Source of the DNA: Sphingomonas hankookensis
GTDB taxonomy: Bacteria > Pseudomonadota > Alphaproteobacteria > Sphingomonadales > Sphingomonadaceae
Direction of reading: 5' to 3'
Assembly (NCBI RefSeq): GCF_028551275.1
Contig: NZ_CP117025.1
Location: 3,495,318 to 3,559,317, forward strand
Length of the DNA stretch: 64,000 bases
Position 1 is the stretch's first letter. Each line of letters begins with the position of its first letter. A program made the translations under genes and the position numbers. This document shows positions 1 to 61,286 of the stretch, one piece after another. The notes below the pieces were generated by a model. That model searched no databases. It saw nothing but the letters and a program-made list of their open reading frames with translations, and was not told the DNA's origin.

Positions 1-421
1 GCTGCGGCATGCCGGCGGCGAGCGGATAGAGCGCGACGGTGCCCGACGAATAATTGGCGACCGCCAGCAGGCCGCCGTTCGGCGCGATCGCGACATGGCA
101 GGGATCGTCGCCGCCGCTCGGCAGGTCGGCAAGGACCTTGCCGTCGCGGTCGGTCGCGACCATCCGCCCCTGCGCGAATTCCCGCACGAAATAACGCATG
201 TCGCCGCGCGACACGCCGAAGGATGCGTCCTTCAGCGCGGGATCGGCGTCGCCGACGCTCCAGCTGCGTGCCGTAGCGGGCAGGCGATAGACCCCCGCCC
301 CGCCCTTTCCGGCATAGGTGCCGGCGATCAGCGCCTGCCGCCATCCCTGCGCGCGGACAGGCAGGGCGGACAGGGTGGCGGTGGCGGCCATGCCGGCCAG
401 AACGGAGCGTCGCGTGGTCAT
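1..421 (-). CDS. Lactonase-family beta-propeller protein, 5' part only
   Basis: The gene runs off the left edge; the first 140 codons are present. The protein opens with a twin-arginine type leader (TTRRSVLAGM, a hydrophobic run, then ALPVRAQ as a likely cleavage site), so export to the periplasm is expected. The stretch DDPCHVAIAPNGG followed by LLAVANYSSGTV is typical of the 6-phosphogluconolactonase / 3-carboxymuconate cyclase-like seven-bladed propeller family (Pfam Lactonase). Exported members usually have unproven substrates, so a sugar lactonase role is a family-level guess. It is the last gene of a minus-strand group that includes sodC. Confidence 0.75.
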   Translation of the reverse strand, partial: MTTRRSVLAGMAATATLSALPVRAQGWRQALIAGTYAGKGGAGVYRLPATARSWSVGDADPALKDASFGVSRGDMRYFVREFAQGRMVATDRDGKVLADLPSGGDDPCHVAIAPNGGLLAVANYSSGTVALYPLAAGMPQ

Positions 422-456
422 GGACCCGCTATGCGCCGCCCGGCCGCCATGCGCAA

Positions 457-981
457 TCAGGCGGCGGTGAACACCCCGCAGGCGATGCGACCACCCGAAT
501 TGCCCGACGGGTCGGTCTTATAGTCGTCGGCATTGGCGTGGACCACGAACGCCGCTCCATCGGCGTCGAGCAGCCCGTCCATCGTGCCGGCGGGCAGCAT
601 GATCGTGACCGACCCCGATCCATCGGCACCGATGGTCAGGTTGGGCGCGTCACCCGCATGCGGGCCGGCGGGGTTGCTGGTGCCGTGCTGCTTCGACGTG
701 GGGTTCCAATGCCCGCCGGCGGTGGTGAAATCGGGCGCGTCGCAGCGGCCGGTGGTGTGGACATGCGCGCCATGGACGCCGGCGGGCATGCCGCGTGCGT
801 CGATCATGATCTGGATGCCGCCCGCCATTTCGGTCGCGGTGACGGTGCCGACATCGGCACCGGCGGCGGTGCGCAGCGGCGCGGTGGCGGTCCGGCCGGC
901 ACTCGCTCCGGTCGAGGCGGTGGTGGTGCAGCCGGCAAGCGCGGTGGCGGCGATGGCGGTGAGCAAGGTGGCACGCAGCAT
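457..981 (-). CDS. sodC: Cu/Zn superoxide dismutase, lipoprotein
   Basis: 174 aa. It converts superoxide to hydrogen peroxide and oxygen in the periplasm. The start at 981 gives a lipoprotein signal ending in LAGC (Cys18); an AAGGGGAA ribosome site lies just upstream, and a longer in-frame extension overlapping the next gene is unlikely. Metal ligands are visible: His73 and His75 (HVH), His91, His99, His108, Asp111 and His148. The conserved disulfide pair would be Cys80 and Cys168, and Arg165 in GGRIACGV is the substrate-guiding arginine. Catalytic residues appear intact. It follows the M23 peptidase gene after 56 bases and may share its transcript. Confidence 0.95.
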   Translation of the reverse strand: MLRATLLTAIAATALAGCTTTASTGASAGRTATAPLRTAAGADVGTVTATEMAGGIQIMIDARGMPAGVHGAHVHTTGRCDAPDFTTAGGHWNPTSKQHGTSNPAGPHAGDAPNLTIGADGSGSVTIMLPAGTMDGLLDADGAAFVVHANADDYKTDPSGNSGGRIACGVFTAA

Positions 982-1037
982 GATCGAGTTCCCCTTTGAT
1001 ACAGATGCGGAATGTTTCTCTGGCACCGAGGGTTCCG

Positions 1038-1829
1038 TCACGGCGTCATCGGTCCGGTCAGCAGCAGCGGATCGATCCGCGCATCGTGCCATTTCATGCC
1101 CCAGTGGAGATGCGGCCCCGTCGCCCGCCCGGTCGCGCCGATGGCGCCCACCACCTGTCCCTGGCGCACATGGTCGCCCGGCTTCACATCGATGCGCGAC
1201 AGATGGAGGAACGCACTGTTCAGTCCCATGCCGTGGTCGATCATCAGCAGATTGCCCTCCAGCGTGAAGGGGGCCGACGCCGCGAGGATGACGACGCCAT
1301 CGGCGGGCGCGGCAACGGGCGTGCCGGTCGGGCGCGCGACATCGACGCCCGAATGATAGGCGCCGGGTTCGCCGGCATAGATACGCTGCGACCCGAACAG
1401 GCCGGAGATGCGACCCTTGACCGGCCAGGCGAAGCGTTGCCGCCACCCCTGCGCATCGGTCGCTATGTCCCGCGCGGCGGCGATCTGCGCAAGTTCGGGC
1501 GCACGGCGGCGCTGGAATTCGGCGGAGGGCTGCGCGATGCGCGGCAGGGTCGGCAGCCGCTCGATCCGCCACGCGCGCGGCGCGACGCTCAAAGGACGGA
1601 CGATGCGCTGGCCATCAGGCAGCGTCGCGATCAGTGTCGCGGACGGGCCGGCGTCGCGGTCGAACGCGATCAGGAACTGCCCGTCCGGCGCGACGGCGAC
1701 CGGCTGTCCGTCCAGTTGCAGCGTCGCGCCTACGGCCACGCTGCCGGTCAGCACCGCGCCCTGCCCCGGCGCACCGCTCAGCACGATCGCGGCGGGAGCG
1801 GCCGCGATCAGGACGGTGGCGGCGATCAC
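1038..1829 (-). CDS. M23 family metallopeptidase (LytM-type)
   Basis: 263 aa. Predicted zinc endopeptidase that cuts peptidoglycan cross-links outside the inner membrane. An N-terminal hydrophobic segment (residues 1-20) acts as signal or anchor; a beta-rich middle follows; the M23 domain spans about 135-255 with the HxxxD zinc motif His159-Asp163, the HLHW motif at 240-243 and the TGRATGPHLHW surroundings that are classic for active members. The start codon is GTG and overlaps the stop of the DUF2093 gene in a GTGA arrangement, so translation is probably coupled. It forms a minus-strand operon with xseA and DUF2093. Confidence 0.93.
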   Translation of the reverse strand: MIAATVLIAAAPAAIVLSGAPGQGAVLTGSVAVGATLQLDGQPVAVAPDGQFLIAFDRDAGPSATLIATLPDGQRIVRPLSVAPRAWRIERLPTLPRIAQPSAEFQRRRAPELAQIAAARDIATDAQGWRQRFAWPVKGRISGLFGSQRIYAGEPGAYHSGVDVARPTGTPVAAPADGVVILAASAPFTLEGNLLMIDHGMGLNSAFLHLSRIDVKPGDHVRQGQVVGAIGATGRATGPHLHWGMKWHDARIDPLLLTGPMTP

Positions 1830-2023
1830 TCCGGCGCGAGCGCCTTGGTCGATGCCTCGGCATCGACATAGGCTTCCTGGCGGCCTGCATTCCAGTAGCG
1901 CAGTTCGTCGAGCGGGATACGGCTGCCGGTGACCGCACAGGTCACGAAGTCGCCATCGGCCAGCACCCGGAAGTTATTGGTCAGGTAGTGGAGCTTGGCG
2001 GGGCGGCTTTCGGGCTTCAGCAT
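1826..2023 (-). CDS. DUF2093 domain protein
   Basis: 65 aa. Small soluble protein matching the DUF2093 family of alphaproteobacteria by its core (PAKLHYL, FRVLADGDFVTCAVTG, IPLDELRYWN). The function of the family is unknown. The IPLDELRYW segment with an aromatic pair is the most conserved part and could be a binding surface. It sits 14 bases after xseA and overlaps the M23 gene by four bases, so the three genes are very likely co-transcribed. No membrane segment or signal is visible, and only one cysteine is present. Confidence 0.88.
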   Translation of the reverse strand: MLKPESRPAKLHYLTNNFRVLADGDFVTCAVTGSRIPLDELRYWNAGRQEAYVDAEASTKALAPE

Positions 2024-2037
2024 CTTGGGTGTCCGGA

Positions 2038-3534
2038 TCAGAGCAGGGTGGGTTGCGTGGGCTCGACATAGGCGCGCCCTCCGGCACGCTCAACCTTCGC
2101 GTCCAGCACGCCGTCGCGGAAGTGGAGTTGCAGCGCCCCGGCCGCGCGCGCATCGGCGGCGGTGGCGACGGTCTTGCCGTTCGTCTTCGCGACGACGCGG
2201 ACATAGCCTTTCTGCAGCAGATTGTCGGGGTTCACCTGTTCCAGCATCCGTGCGGTGCCGTCGAATCGGGCGCGCGCCTGCGCCAGCCGCTGGGTCAGCA
2301 TCGCAGGCCTGAGCGCATGGCCGTGACGGTCGAGGTTGCGCCGCGCGGTTGCCACGCGGCGTTCGAGTGCCAGCGACAGGCGACCGGCGACATCGTCCAG
2401 CCGCTGGCGCTGCGGCCCCAGCAACGCGTCGCGGCGCGGCATGACGCGGACCAGCGCCGCGAGCTGCTCGCGCCCGCGATCATGATAGCGCCGCACGCAA
2501 CGCTGGGTGCGCAGCGACAGGGTGGCGAGCGTGTGGGCAAGGTCGGCGCGGACCGGCACCGCCAGTTCGGCGGCGGCGGTCGGCGTCGGCGCGCGCAGGT
2601 CGGCGGCATGGTCGCACAGGGTCGTGTCGGTCTCATGGCCTACCGCCGAGATGACCGGGATCGGCGAGGCGGCGACCGCGCGAACGACGACTTCCTCGTT
2701 GAAGCACCACAGATCCTCGATCGACCCGCCGCCGCGCGCGACGATCAGGAGGTCGGGGCGATAGATCGTGCCGCGCTCACCATTTGCCGTACCCCCGCGC
2801 AGGCGGGGGTCCAGGGTTTCAGTCGCCGACGCCGGTGCTTCCGGCTCTGGACCCCCGCCTGCGCGGGGGTACGGGTTCGATTCTTCGGAAGTCGGGCGCG
2901 GGGGGAGCGCAGCGAACCCCTTCACCGCCGCCGCGATCTCCGCCGCCGCGCCTTCGCCCTGCACCTTGACCGGCCAGACGAGCACATGCGTCGGGCAGCG
3001 ATCGGCCAGCCGGTGGAGGATGTCGCGGATGACCGCGCCGGTCGGCGAGGTGACGATGCCGATGGTGCGCGGCATGAACGGCAGCGGACGCTTCTTCGCC
3101 GGATCGAACAGCCCCTCGCCCGCCAGCTTCGCCTTCAACTTCTCGAGCAGCGCCATCAGCGCGCCCTCGCCGGCCAGCTCCAGATGATCGATCACGATCT
3201 GGTAGCGCGAGCGGCCGGGATAGGTGGTGAGCTTGCCGGTGGCGATCACCTCGACGCCGTCCTGCGGCGTGAACGCCAGCCGCCCCGCCGATCCGCGCCA
3301 CATTACCCCGTCGATCAGCGCAGCATCGTCCTTGAGCGCCAGATAGACATGGCCCGACGACGCGCGCTTATAGCCCGAAATCTCGCCGCGCAGCCGGACG
3401 CGGCCGAACTCCCCCTCGACCATCCGCTTCAACCGGCCGGCGAGTTCGCTGACGCTTTCGGGCGCGGCGTTGTCGTTCGCGCGCGGCTCGGCTACGAGCC
3501 GGCTCGACATAAAATCGGGGAAACGATCGTCCAT
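2038..3534 (-). CDS. xseA: Exodeoxyribonuclease VII large subunit with an in-frame repeat insertion
   Basis: 498 aa, against about 400-460 for usual XseA. With XseB it degrades single-stranded DNA. Residues 25-120 hold the OB-fold ([23 protein letters not shown]); the catalytic domain follows, with [15 protein letters not shown] at 158-172 and the [15 protein letters not shown] motif at 262-276. Between them, about residues 219-252, is an alien stretch (PYPRAGGGP ... LDPRLRGG) that is the translation of a palindromic repeat found between genes elsewhere in the window. The reading frame is kept. The ATG at 3534 has an AGGA site five bases upstream but overlaps the start codon of divergent purD. 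Confidence 0.95.
2788..2874. repeat. Full-length palindromic repeat (type 1) inside xseA
   Basis: About 87 bases. The left arm is GTACCCCCGCGCAGGCGGGG followed by TCCAGGG; the right arm is its near inverse, CTGGACCCCCGCCTGCGCGG followed by GGTAC; a variable spacer of about 30 bases lies between. Each arm is itself a hairpin (CCCCCGC-GCAG-GCGGGGG). Read on the minus strand it encodes [22 protein letters not shown] without a stop. The same arms recur at 20304-20391 and 61126-61212, and as single arms at three more places. Confidence 0.92.
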
Positions 3535-4804
3535 GAATGTCCTGTTGATCGGATCGGGTGGGCGCGAACATGCGCTGGCGTGGAAGCTGGCACAGTCGCC
3601 GCTTCTCGATACGCTTTATGCCGCGCCCGGCAACCCCGGCATCGCCCAATCCGCGACGCTGATCCCGCTGGACGTGACCGATCACGCCGCGGTGGTGCGC
3701 TTCTGCGTCGAACGGTCGGTCAAGCTGGTGGTGGTCGGGCCGGAAGCGCCGCTGGTCGCCGGCCTTGCCGACGATCTGCGCGCGGCCGGCATCGCGACCT
3801 TCGGGCCATCGGCAGCGGCGGCGCAGCTCGAAGGGTCGAAGGGCTATACCAAGGATCTGTGCCGCGAGGCCGATATCCCGACCGCAGGCTATGTCCGCGT
3901 GTCGTCGCTCGACGAGGCGATCGCCGCGCTCTCCCCCTTCTCGCTGCCGGTCGTCATCAAGGCCGATGGGCTTGCGGCAGGCAAGGGCGTGACCGTGGCG
4001 ATGGACCGTGCCGAGGCCGAGGGGGCATTGGCCGCGATCTTTGCCGATGCCGGCGGCGAGGCGGTGATCGAGGAGTTCCTCGCCGGCGAGGAAGCCAGCC
4101 TGTTCGTGCTGACCGATGGCGTGTCGCTGCTGCCGTTCGGGTCGGCGCAGGACCACAAGCGCGTCGGCGACGGCGATACCGGGCCGAATACCGGCGGCAT
4201 GGGGGCCTATTCCCCCGCCCCGGTCCTGACGCCGGCGCTGGAGAAACTGGCGATCGATACCATCGTCGCGCCGACCGTCCGCGCGATGGCAGCGCGTGGC
4301 ACGCCCTATTCCGGCGTTCTCTATGCCGGGCTGATGCTGACCGATCGCGGACCGAAGCTGATCGAATACAACGCGCGCTTCGGCGATCCCGAATGCCAGG
4401 TGCTGATGGCGCGGCTCGACAGCGATCTGCTGCCGGTGCTGCTGGCAGTCGCGCAGGGAACCCTGGCAGAGGTGGCGCCGCCCGCCTTCAGCGACGATAC
4501 CGCATTGACGGTCGTGATGGCGGCACCCGGCTATCCGGGCACGCCGGAAACGGGCCGCGCGATCGGCGGGATCGACGCGGCGGAGGCGACCGGCGCGACG
4601 GTGTTTCATGCGGGAACCCGTTCGGAGGGTGCAGGCGTTGTGACCGCCGGTGGCCGGGTGCTGGCCGTGACCGGGCGCGGGGCCAGTGTGACCGCCGCGC
4701 AGGAAGCGGCGTACCGGGCGGTCGATGCGCTCGACTTTCCGGGCTTCTGCCGCCGCGACATCGGCTGGCGGGAAGTCGCGCGCGAAGCGGCGATGAAGGA
4801 TTGA
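3533..4804 (+). CDS. purD: Phosphoribosylamine-glycine ligase (GAR synthetase)
   Basis: 423 aa, normal length. Second step of purine synthesis: joins glycine to 5-phosphoribosylamine using ATP. Start [19 protein letters not shown] matches the family N-terminus exactly, which fixes the ATG at 3533 although a longer frame is open upstream. The ATP-grasp domain spans about 105-310 ([21 protein letters not shown], then [13 protein letters not shown] near 285), followed by the C-terminal domain. The start codon shares two bases with that of xseA on the other strand, so the purD promoter must lie within xseA. A GGGGAA ribosome site lies about ten bases upstream. Confidence 0.97.
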
Positions 4805-4808
4805 GACG

Positions 4809-5384
4809 ATGGATAGCGGCACCACTCCCCTGCAATCGCCCGGTTTCCTGGGCGCGCTGACGACGGTCCATTTCGTCCTGATCGCCGTGCTGGCGGTGCT
4901 GACGATCATCGGCATCGCCTATGGCATGAAGCTGGCGCGGGCGCGGCGGCAGGCAGCGCGCGAGCTGGAGGATGCCGGGCATCTGGAGCATGGCGATGCG
5001 GCGGTCCCCGAGCCGGCGGCAGCGGTCGAGACTGCGCGTCCGACTCCGCCGGTCGAACGGACGCCGGTCGAGCGCATGCCGGAACCGGCGATCGCTCCCG
5101 CGCCTGCTCCGGTCGCCACCCCGATACCGGCCGCGCCCGCTGCTGCGGATACCGACCTGACCCGCCTGAAAGGTCTCGGCCCCAAGGTCGCGGCGATGCT
5201 GATCGAACAGGGCGTTCCCGATATCGCGACGTTGGCGACACTGGATGCCGCCCGGGCCGATGCGGTCGCCGCGCAACTCGGCATGTTCGCACCGCGCATG
5301 ACGAAGGATCGCTGGGTCGAACAGGCGCAGTTCCTTGCGGCGGGCGATATCGCCGGGTTCGAGGCCAGGTTCGGAAAGCTGTAG
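4809..5384 (+). CDS. Membrane-anchored helix-hairpin-helix protein
   Basis: 191 aa. One transmembrane helix near residues 20-42 (TTVHFVLIAVLAVLTIIGIAYG), a basic stretch, then a long Pro/Ala/Glu-rich linker (about 60-125) and a C-terminal domain with LTRLKGLGPKVAAMLIEQGVPDIATLA. That is a helix-hairpin-helix fold like those of DNA-binding and structure-recognition proteins, with the GLGPK hairpin intact. It would place the HhH unit in the cytoplasm on a tether. It starts four bases after purD and is probably co-transcribed. Function is not known; similar architectures are common in sphingomonads as conserved hypotheticals. Confidence 0.8.
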   Translation: MDSGTTPLQSPGFLGALTTVHFVLIAVLAVLTIIGIAYGMKLARARRQAARELEDAGHLEHGDAAVPEPAAAVETARPTPPVERTPVERMPEPAIAPAPAPVATPIPAAPAAADTDLTRLKGLGPKVAAMLIEQGVPDIATLATLDAARADAVAAQLGMFAPRMTKDRWVEQAQFLAAGDIAGFEARFGKL

Positions 5385-5412
5385 CGCCGGTCGATACCGC
5401 GTCGTACCCGCG

Positions 5413-20240: not shown

Positions 20241-20303
20241 AGTCTTGGCGGCGGGGCTGACGGAAGTCCGATCGGCATTCAGACCCTGACTGCCGCCCGC
20301 TTC

Positions 20304-20391
20304 CGTACCCCCGCGCAGGCGGGGGTCCAGAGCCAGGCAAGACGAAGGCTTGCGTATGTTGCCCTGAATCCCCGCCTGCGCGGGGATACGC
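20304..20391. repeat. Full-length palindromic repeat (type 1) between secB and murJ
   Basis: Left arm CGTACCCCCGCGCAGGCGGG followed by GGTCCAG, a variable 32-base spacer, and right arm CTGAATCCCCGCCTGCGCGG followed by GGATACG. Same architecture as the copy in xseA; the right arm here has two changes from it. Confidence 0.9.
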
Positions 20392-29018: not shown

Positions 29019-29033
29019 TGCCGAAGGCATCAA

Positions 29034-29050
29034 ACCCCCGCGCAGGCGGG
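29034..29050. repeat. Single arm of type 1 repeat between ubiE and ubiB
   Basis: CCCCCGC-GCAG-GCGGGG hairpin followed by CTCCAGGG, matching the left arm of the full-length copies. The mate arm is missing. It occupies the only non-overlapping junction of the ubiE-to-dsrE gene row. Confidence 0.75.
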
Positions 29051-29070
29051 GCTCCAGGGCCAAAGGCAGC

Positions 29071-46364: not shown

Positions 46365-46467
46365 CGTCATGCGCAGCATGACGAAGCGTCAACCCCGGCG
46401 AAGGCCGGGGCCTCCCGCCGATAGAATGCCCTCATTTCAGGGAGACCCCAGCCTTAGCTGGGGTGAC
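46365..46467. repeat. Three consecutive hairpins between cysD and cysNC
   Basis: CGTCATGC-GCA-GCATGACG (46365-46383, perfect), then ACCCCGGCGAAGGCCGGGGCC (about 46392-46412), then ACCCCAGCCTTAGCTGGGGT (about 46445-46464). The latter two have the form of alphaproteobacterial REP-like palindromes. They may protect cysD mRNA from degradation or set its level relative to cysNC. Confidence 0.7.
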
Positions 46468-46475
46468 GTGCAGAT

Positions 46476-53443: not shown

Positions 53444-53470
53444 GGCGAATGTCGCGCTGCGTATAGCCGC

Positions 53471-53490
53471 ATCCCCGCGCAGGCGGGGAT
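53471..53490. repeat. Single arm of type 1 repeat between CDF gene and aldose epimerase
   Basis: ATCCCCGC-GCAG-GCGGGGAT, a perfect eight-base stem in a 67-base gap between convergent genes. Probably doubles as a transcription stop for both. Confidence 0.7.
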
Positions 53491-53510
53491 ACGGTTCCAG
53501 CTAGGAAGTT

Positions 53511-61107: not shown

Positions 61108-61125
61108 GAGCCGCCAAGGCCGTTA

Positions 61126-61212
61126 CGTACCCCCGCGCAGGCTGGGGTCCAGGGTTCTGGAACACGACGGCTGGGCTGTGCCGCCCTGGATCCCCGCCTG
61201 CGCGGGGATACG
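61126..61212. repeat. Full-length palindromic repeat (type 1) after the aminotransferase gene
   Basis: CGTACCCCCGCGCAGGCTGG followed by GGTCCAGGG, a 30-base variable spacer, and CCCTGGATCCCCGCCTGCGC followed by GGGGATACG. Third full copy in the window; read in one frame it again gives the YPRAGG-like and LDPRLRG-like peptides. Confidence 0.9.
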
Positions 61213-61286
61213 ATACGGCCGGGTCAGCGGCTGGAACCCCCACCCGCTTCCCGGCGCTATAGGCAACAACGCAACCCGGAGCGCCC

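Follow-up and report, generated by a model that had tools for sequence, protein, structure and literature searches.

Relation to described palindromic repeats

Inverted doublets of GTAG REPs associated with RAYT transposases are called REPINs. The repeat family described here also forms inverted REP doublets, with tags facing outward and dispersed between genes, but it carries no GTAG tag and its genome contains no match to PF01797, which places it outside this group. Rickettsia palindromic elements, from another genus, are palindromic repeats that lie in frame in protein genes as the present one does, a likeness taken from their description. The initial annotation of our locus had drawn this parallel and in kind it holds, RPE-6 and RPE-4 of R. 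conorii having been classed as CGTC REPs (PMC3733652). The main-text sections on CGTC REPs in that paper (Di Nocera, De Gregorio and Rocco 2013) already describe in-frame REPs, some of them in DNA-repair genes, as well as the tag variants TGTC and CCTC and a pair of Xanthomonas recB genes with different REPs at roughly one position. They leave open the means by which CGTC-type REPs spread with no transposase. The CGTC-1 REPs of these sections resemble our main family, F1 (the labels F1 to F5 and F3' are our own), in their 8-bp stem, 4-nt loop, CCA tail and predominance of inverted dimers. They also resemble the present case in being mostly alphaproteobacterial, with several families per genome, no associated transposase and in-frame copies in genes, but differ at the last base of the tag, having CGTC before the stem where F1 mostly has NCGT. 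The dRS3 repeat of Neisseria, assigned to CGTC-1 in the same sections, is again like F1 by description; Neisseria elements are said there to lie mostly in large clusters, whereas ours are mostly dispersed dimers. Searches of an open-licence library listed none on REPs in Sphingomonas xseA among its papers, and neither xseA nor a ygjP-like gene is named in these main-text sections, although the supplementary list of intragenic REPs of PMC3733652 could name xseA. Compared with the Xanthomonas recB pair of those sections, we describe replacement of families at one coding site across 15 genomes.

The F1 family and its spread in the genus

The window is a 64,000-nt stretch of the Sphingomonas hankookensis genome (NZ_CP117025.1, positions 3,495,318 to 3,559,317). 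With up to one mismatch, the F1 core CCCGCGCAGGCGGGG occurs 282 times (135 + 147) in the whole 3.95-Mb genome, against 7 (3 + 4) for a reversed-pattern control. The loci that we sampled from this genome cover 174 of the 282 cores and hold 78 strict same-family dimers: 70 F1, 4 F3, 2 F4, 1 F2 and 1 F5. An F1 unit has an 8-bp stem (ACCCCCGC/GCGGGGGT) and the 4-nt loop GCAG, as expected of CGTC REPs, whose palindromic units have stems of 8-9 bp and loops of 4-5 nt, and a CCA tail follows the stem in 132 of 144 exact-core units. The stem is preceded by NCGT in 124 of these units and by CGTC in 2; the units of F2, F4 and F5 that we read do carry the CGTC tag. Because NCGT, and rarely CGTC, precedes the stem, we would class F1 by its sequence as CGTC-like and not as a strict CGTC REP. 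The inverted, tags-outward arrangement, which we take as equivalent to the HH arrangement in the sections of PMC3733652 cited above, was found in 89 of 102 close pairs, these pairs being drawn from cores with up to three mismatches and including a few chance pairs (e.g., at window 59967). F1 dimers are 77-90 nt long (n = 70), and 7 of the 70 have perfectly complementary 28-nt arms, the xseA copy described below being of that type. A search of Rfam gave eight matches, one to snaR-A and the other seven to microRNA models, and all scored far below gathering level; strong hairpins can give such matches and an Rfam identity was rejected.

Within the window, a family search located two further F1 dimers at 20303..20391 and 61125..61213, both taken as intergenic, in agreement with the repeats initially placed at 20304 and 61126. 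A single F1 unit, or half element, lies at 29030..29057 (plus strand); the orthologous site holds a different dimer in genome G199 and no REP in G148.

A search with the Y1/RAYT transposase model PF01797 gave no match in the S. hankookensis genome, and mobilization by a RAYT today was rejected on that ground. This domain is present in 12 of 121 genomes of the genus, and these hold no more than one exact core apiece. Exact cores occur in 80 of the 121 genomes, with 186 in our genome, 80 in G117, 40 in G095 and 37 in G087, and counts at up to one mismatch in five genomes reach 282 in our genome and 274, 227, 195 and 181 in four relatives. The core has thus expanded strongly in this Sphingomonas clade. 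Cores of G087 are unevenly oriented at one mismatch (137 forward, 58 reverse; 15 and 22 for exact cores), and this genome may contain another repeat one base off the core on one strand. We also observed that RPSH01000004.1 (L031), titled Bacillus sp. 2B10, contains numerous REP cores and an xseA resembling that of Sphingomonas; its title looks mistaken.

An in-frame REP dimer in xseA

The xseA gene (2038..3534, minus strand) encodes the 498-aa large subunit of exodeoxyribonuclease VII, as identified from its open reading frame, Pfam domains (PF13742, OB fold, residues 26-117; PF02601, Exonuc_VII_L, residues 141-478; numbered on the translation without Met) and best PDB match (8txr_A, E = 1.6e-70). 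The frame is open along its full length, the insert included. This insert contains an 88-nt F1 dimer (2787..2874, minus strand) made of two inverted units with CGT tags outward and CCA tails inward, as indicated by its arms, its fold and the 70 such dimers sampled. The first arm, CCGTACCCCCGCGCAGGCGGGGGTCCAG (2787..2814, plus strand), and the second (2847..2874, minus strand), its exact reverse complement, are 28 nt each with 100% complementarity, and a 32-nt spacer (2815..2846) separates them. As single-stranded DNA the repeat folds at -50.2 kcal/mol (z = -9.6), a stability reached by none of 200 shuffled sequences. Codon-position G+C on the two sides of the insert is 0.72/0.52/0.92 and 0.74/0.55/0.90. 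The initial proposal of a palindromic repeat of intergenic type in frame in xseA is thereby confirmed, and the insert proves to be a genuine REP dimer, read in frame within a loop that tolerates it, and belongs to a known kind.

The dimensions first given require revision. About 34 residues (219-252) had been assigned to the repeat; it encodes residues ~221-250, and compared with the 30-residue loop found in most relatives the protein gains a net 41 residues (123 nt). The gain exceeds the repeat because extra codons flank the latter on both sides: the variable segment enclosed by the LP and RPDLL codons, as delimited by sequence and allele comparison (2761..2901, minus strand), consists of 47 codons, the dimer plus flanking codons, in the place of 6 codons in alleles devoid of an insert. 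Comparison of filled and empty alleles by eye revealed no clean target site duplication of the sort that MITEs leave on insertion, the six ancestral codons being replaced.

It had also been suggested that a length of about 87 bases, divisible by three, and a lack of stops in this orientation might let the element spread in genes. The element is 88 nt long, and only 12 of the 70 sampled F1 dimers have a length that is a multiple of three, which excludes a length tuned for genes. Openness does exceed chance and may help tolerance: F1 dimers have a mean of 5.04 open frames out of six, against 3.90 after base shuffling, where the maximum over 200 shuffles was 4.27, and 4.09 for 87-nt pieces drawn at random from the window. 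It is a property of all six frames, in all of which the F1 arm is stop-free, and so is not specific to one orientation. Intragenic dimers were called by eye from codon-position G+C, open reading frames over dimers having given dozens of spurious high-GC frames. The resulting list contains two convincing cases, with L173 (F4) as a third entry. Since only 2 of the 78 sampled dimers look intragenic, genes are tolerated places for such dimers rather than their habitat.

Structural context of the XseA loop

Alignment of XseA to 8txr, the E. coli ExoVII H238A structure, extends to residue 205 and resumes from 261, that is, around the insert. A first AlphaFold2 model, built on a shallow alignment (mean pLDDT 54.9), was superseded by a second one (mean pLDDT 78.0), numbered as full length minus one since its translation lacks Met1. 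The second model has a helix at 195-207, a loop at 221-250 with pLDDT 44-46, following residues at pLDDT 96, and a strand at 261-265. Foldseek ranked 8txr first, and its low TM score by query length (0.34-0.35) and high rmsd (15-31) make the placement of domains in the model unreliable. The invariant residues D170, R266, H299 and D302 are outside the insert; their E. coli counterparts are catalytic, and H238 is the residue mutated in 8txr. The alignment places the insert in a loop that follows a helix and precedes the strand running into the RGGGS motif; extra residues at this loop are predicted to be disordered and tolerated.

Turnover of REP alleles at the XseA loop

The alignment of other XseA proteins proposed at the outset, in which the insert might have turned up in distant relatives, did not reveal it there. 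Across 109 aligned loci, the stretch from AAAVRGF to ARGGGS most often measures 30 residues (93 loci); it spans 25-35 residues in a further 9 and 49-71 in the remaining 7, among them the S. hankookensis protein with 71. Outside the clade, none of these loci showed a REP peptide. When the closest homologues were parsed, 97 of the 125 rows again gave the 30-residue loop. Among the matches listed for 295 genomes of the genus, those unbroken over the loop came from the clade itself and from G084 and G013, whose linkers are of another kind and shorter. Among the best 120 of 8000 scored homologues, we recognized by eye the F1 peptide in 7, F3 in 5, F5 in 1 and a collapsed F1 in 2, along with 2 long and 3 short unrecognized inserts; two rows were unparsed and one was misparsed. 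At this loop the XseA proteins P0024 and P0025 carry a 42-residue insert that we could not assign to any of the five REP families. A distant alphaproteobacterial XseA, that of UBA6178 (L052), has a 36-residue insert at the same loop, and its DNA contains short direct and inverted repeats.

Comparison of 15 clade genomes at the DNA level, with alleles assigned by eye, distinguished five states of the loop: F1 in 3 genomes (ours, S. hankookensis CN3 and G198), collapsed F1 in 1 (G148), F3 in 4 (G167, G287, G286 and G218), F5 in 1 (G087) and empty in 6 (G199, G195, G155, Leaf67, G194 and G232). In all nine insert alleles the insert follows LPxRP and precedes [IV]YRPDLL, and all six empty alleles read LPxDGPVRRPDLL. 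Close flanks can be common to different families, as in P0003 (F1, LPPRPQ...GDGANQIYRP) and L031 (F3, LPPRPQ...GDGGNQIYRP). Collapsed forms occur in xseA of G148, P0007 and P0026, and between genes too. The new result is one of turnover: sister species have at this loop dimers of three families, a collapsed hairpin, or none.

On a tree of xseA outside the loop (15 tips, full support on only 4 of 12 inner branches), the alleles require 8 changes, against a mean of 8.2 for shuffled labels. The sister pairs G198/Leaf67 and G218/G148, each with support 100/99, carry different alleles. For the nine closest genomes, pairs with the same allele (n = 8) are no more alike than pairs with different alleles (n = 28) in flanks of 40, 80, 160, 320 and 540 nt. 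Over all 15 genomes, the relation between insert presence and flank identity was reached by 558 of 2000 permutations at 40 nt and by 116, 44, 59 and 61 at 80, 160, 320 and 540 nt, a weak association. Linkage is limited to the last few nucleotides: CTTCCC stands at the LP codons in 5 of 9 filled alleles and in 0 of 6 empty ones. Because flanks of 40 nt or more do not sort by allele in the nine closest genomes, the alleles were not brought in by long recombination tracts; very short tracts may have carried them.

A second gene and sites between genes

The second clear intragenic F1 dimer lies in a gene for a YgjP-like metallopeptidase (PF01863; L019 1081-1869, minus strand; near 482,887 of contig C1 of our genome), identified by Pfam and codon-position G+C. 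It is read in another frame than in xseA. REP dimers occupy the corresponding loop in 13 of the 15 genomes: F1 in 3, F4 in 4, F3' (a further CGTC family found at this loop) in 3, and in 3 an F3' half that precedes an F4-type dimer, the tandem allele of G194 having been assigned by eye; G087 retains a remnant and G232 has no REP. The three tandem alleles are, on their sequences, the best candidates for replacement intermediates, and could instead be recombinants. Flanks of 40 to 290 nt showed no grouping by allele in 11 genomes, ours included, with S. hankookensis CN3, G087, G232 and the unparsed G195 set aside.

Regions of 20 to 140 kb around xseA from seven genomes contain 23 orthologous REP sites, grouped by hand and then by script with the same counts. 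REPs are present in at least two genomes at 13 of these sites, and 5 of the 13, xseA included, have disjoint families in at least one pair, the families being assigned by edit distance to the five cores, a rough measure that can err. One further site has a different dimer under the same core-match label, and many have a REP in one genome and none in others. Turnover at fixed places is thus a general feature, recorded most clearly in the coding loops.

Comparison with the second strain of the species, CN3, bears on present activity. Of 37 REP clusters with both flanks mapped to pieces of CN3, 35 fall inside a single alignment, mostly at loci with 99.8-100% identity; the CN3 pieces were picked around its own cores, which favours shared copies, and counts of this kind can reveal only shared copies that fall inside an alignment. 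The two exceptions, at window 46387-46469 and 53467-53494, lie in blocks ~95-98% identical. At the former, our genome has an F3/F4-type dimer and extra flanking sequence just before a start codon, and CN3 has no dimer, the two genes overlapping there. At the latter, a single collapsed F1-type hairpin stands opposite an F2-type dimer in CN3; simple replacement fails to explain this site because the near flanks differ as well. As no replacement between near-identical strains was caught among the 37 clusters, current REP mobility looks low. For the 78 strict dimers, the comparison with CN3 placed 21 in blocks whose identity was 99.5% or more and 10 in blocks below that level. The block containing xseA (window 3-5387, against L211) is only 87.6% identical to the genome of the same species, most other compared loci reaching 99.9-100%, and is probably a recombined tract. 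Species plainly do recombine with one another, and if only very short tracts were exchanged the outcome could look like replacement in place.

Origin and persistence of the inserts

We consider it fairly probable (about 0.65) that a disordered XseA loop became a landing site for REPs, in which resident dimers were replaced or lost under selection for the reading frame. A REP insertion would have opened the loop in this clade and left it as a standing landing site, where the resident dimer has been replaced by other families, reduced to one hairpin, or is absent. All copies read are in frame, a pattern suggesting that frame-breaking versions were lost by selection. The likeliest route would be for a new dimer to insert within the resident one or next to it and for the old one then to be deleted, perhaps helped by hairpin-induced breaks or by template switching between the many REP copies; the search with PF01797 found no Y1/RAYT gene that might do this today. 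We propose far more tentatively that REP dimers lacking a transposase persist because one dimer is exchanged for another. The dimer in residence would mark the site, dimers of other families would be copied or inserted into it and the old one trimmed off, such that fixed sites, coding loops included, would cycle through families like cassettes.

Part of the evidence would also suit a few old alleles (F1, F3, F5 and empty) being exchanged between species by homologous recombination, with no replacement in place. The 87.6% tract at xseA looks foreign in a genome that otherwise mostly matches the second strain at 99.9% identity, and LPxRP and YRPDLL are common to insert alleles in two sub-clades. 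The presence of CTTCCC beside the insert in 5 of 9 filled alleles and the weak association of insert presence with flank identity over all 15 genomes point the same way, and the CTTCCC linkage and the one-sided strain comparison led us to move some weight, slightly, to this explanation. It nevertheless seems rather improbable: same-allele pairs are no more alike at 40-540 nt in the nine closest genomes, the flanks of the YgjP-like gene show no grouping over 40 to 290 nt in 11 genomes, and different families in near-identical flanks (P0003 and L031) still require a swap. Separate hits in each lineage, at the one place where XseA tolerates inserts, would account for the scatter of empty alleles on the tree and for the other unrecognized inserts at this loop in P0024/P0025, G084, G013 and UBA6178; that the flanking codons are common to different families and that the F1 and F3 copies use the same frame makes this unlikely.

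Retention of the REP-encoded segment for a role in exonuclease VII appears very unlikely. The insert alleles are read in frame, although a protein database can show only open ones, and many replication and repair genes are among the REP-tagged genes in the sections of PMC3733652 considered here. Yet sister species have three unrelated peptides, a collapsed one or none at a loop predicted to be disordered, and the second gene encodes a peptidase and reads the repeat in another frame. We found nothing in favour of an assembly or annotation artefact, which we regard as extremely unlikely: the F1 insert recurs with substitutions in CN3 as well as in proteins of other origin, and the codon-position G+C on the two sides of the insert also speaks against it.

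A coding loop is a clean recorder of REP turnover. Because the reading frame and the conserved flanks fix the site, its state (filled, swapped, tandem, collapsed or empty) can be assigned with orthology hardly in doubt. The clade offers a pair of such loops, and with 282 cores and no match found to PF01797 in the genome, the question of how these repeats spread becomes testable by population sequencing. Meanwhile, a repair nuclease subunit and a peptidase of these bacteria carry clade-specific loops built of repeat DNA.
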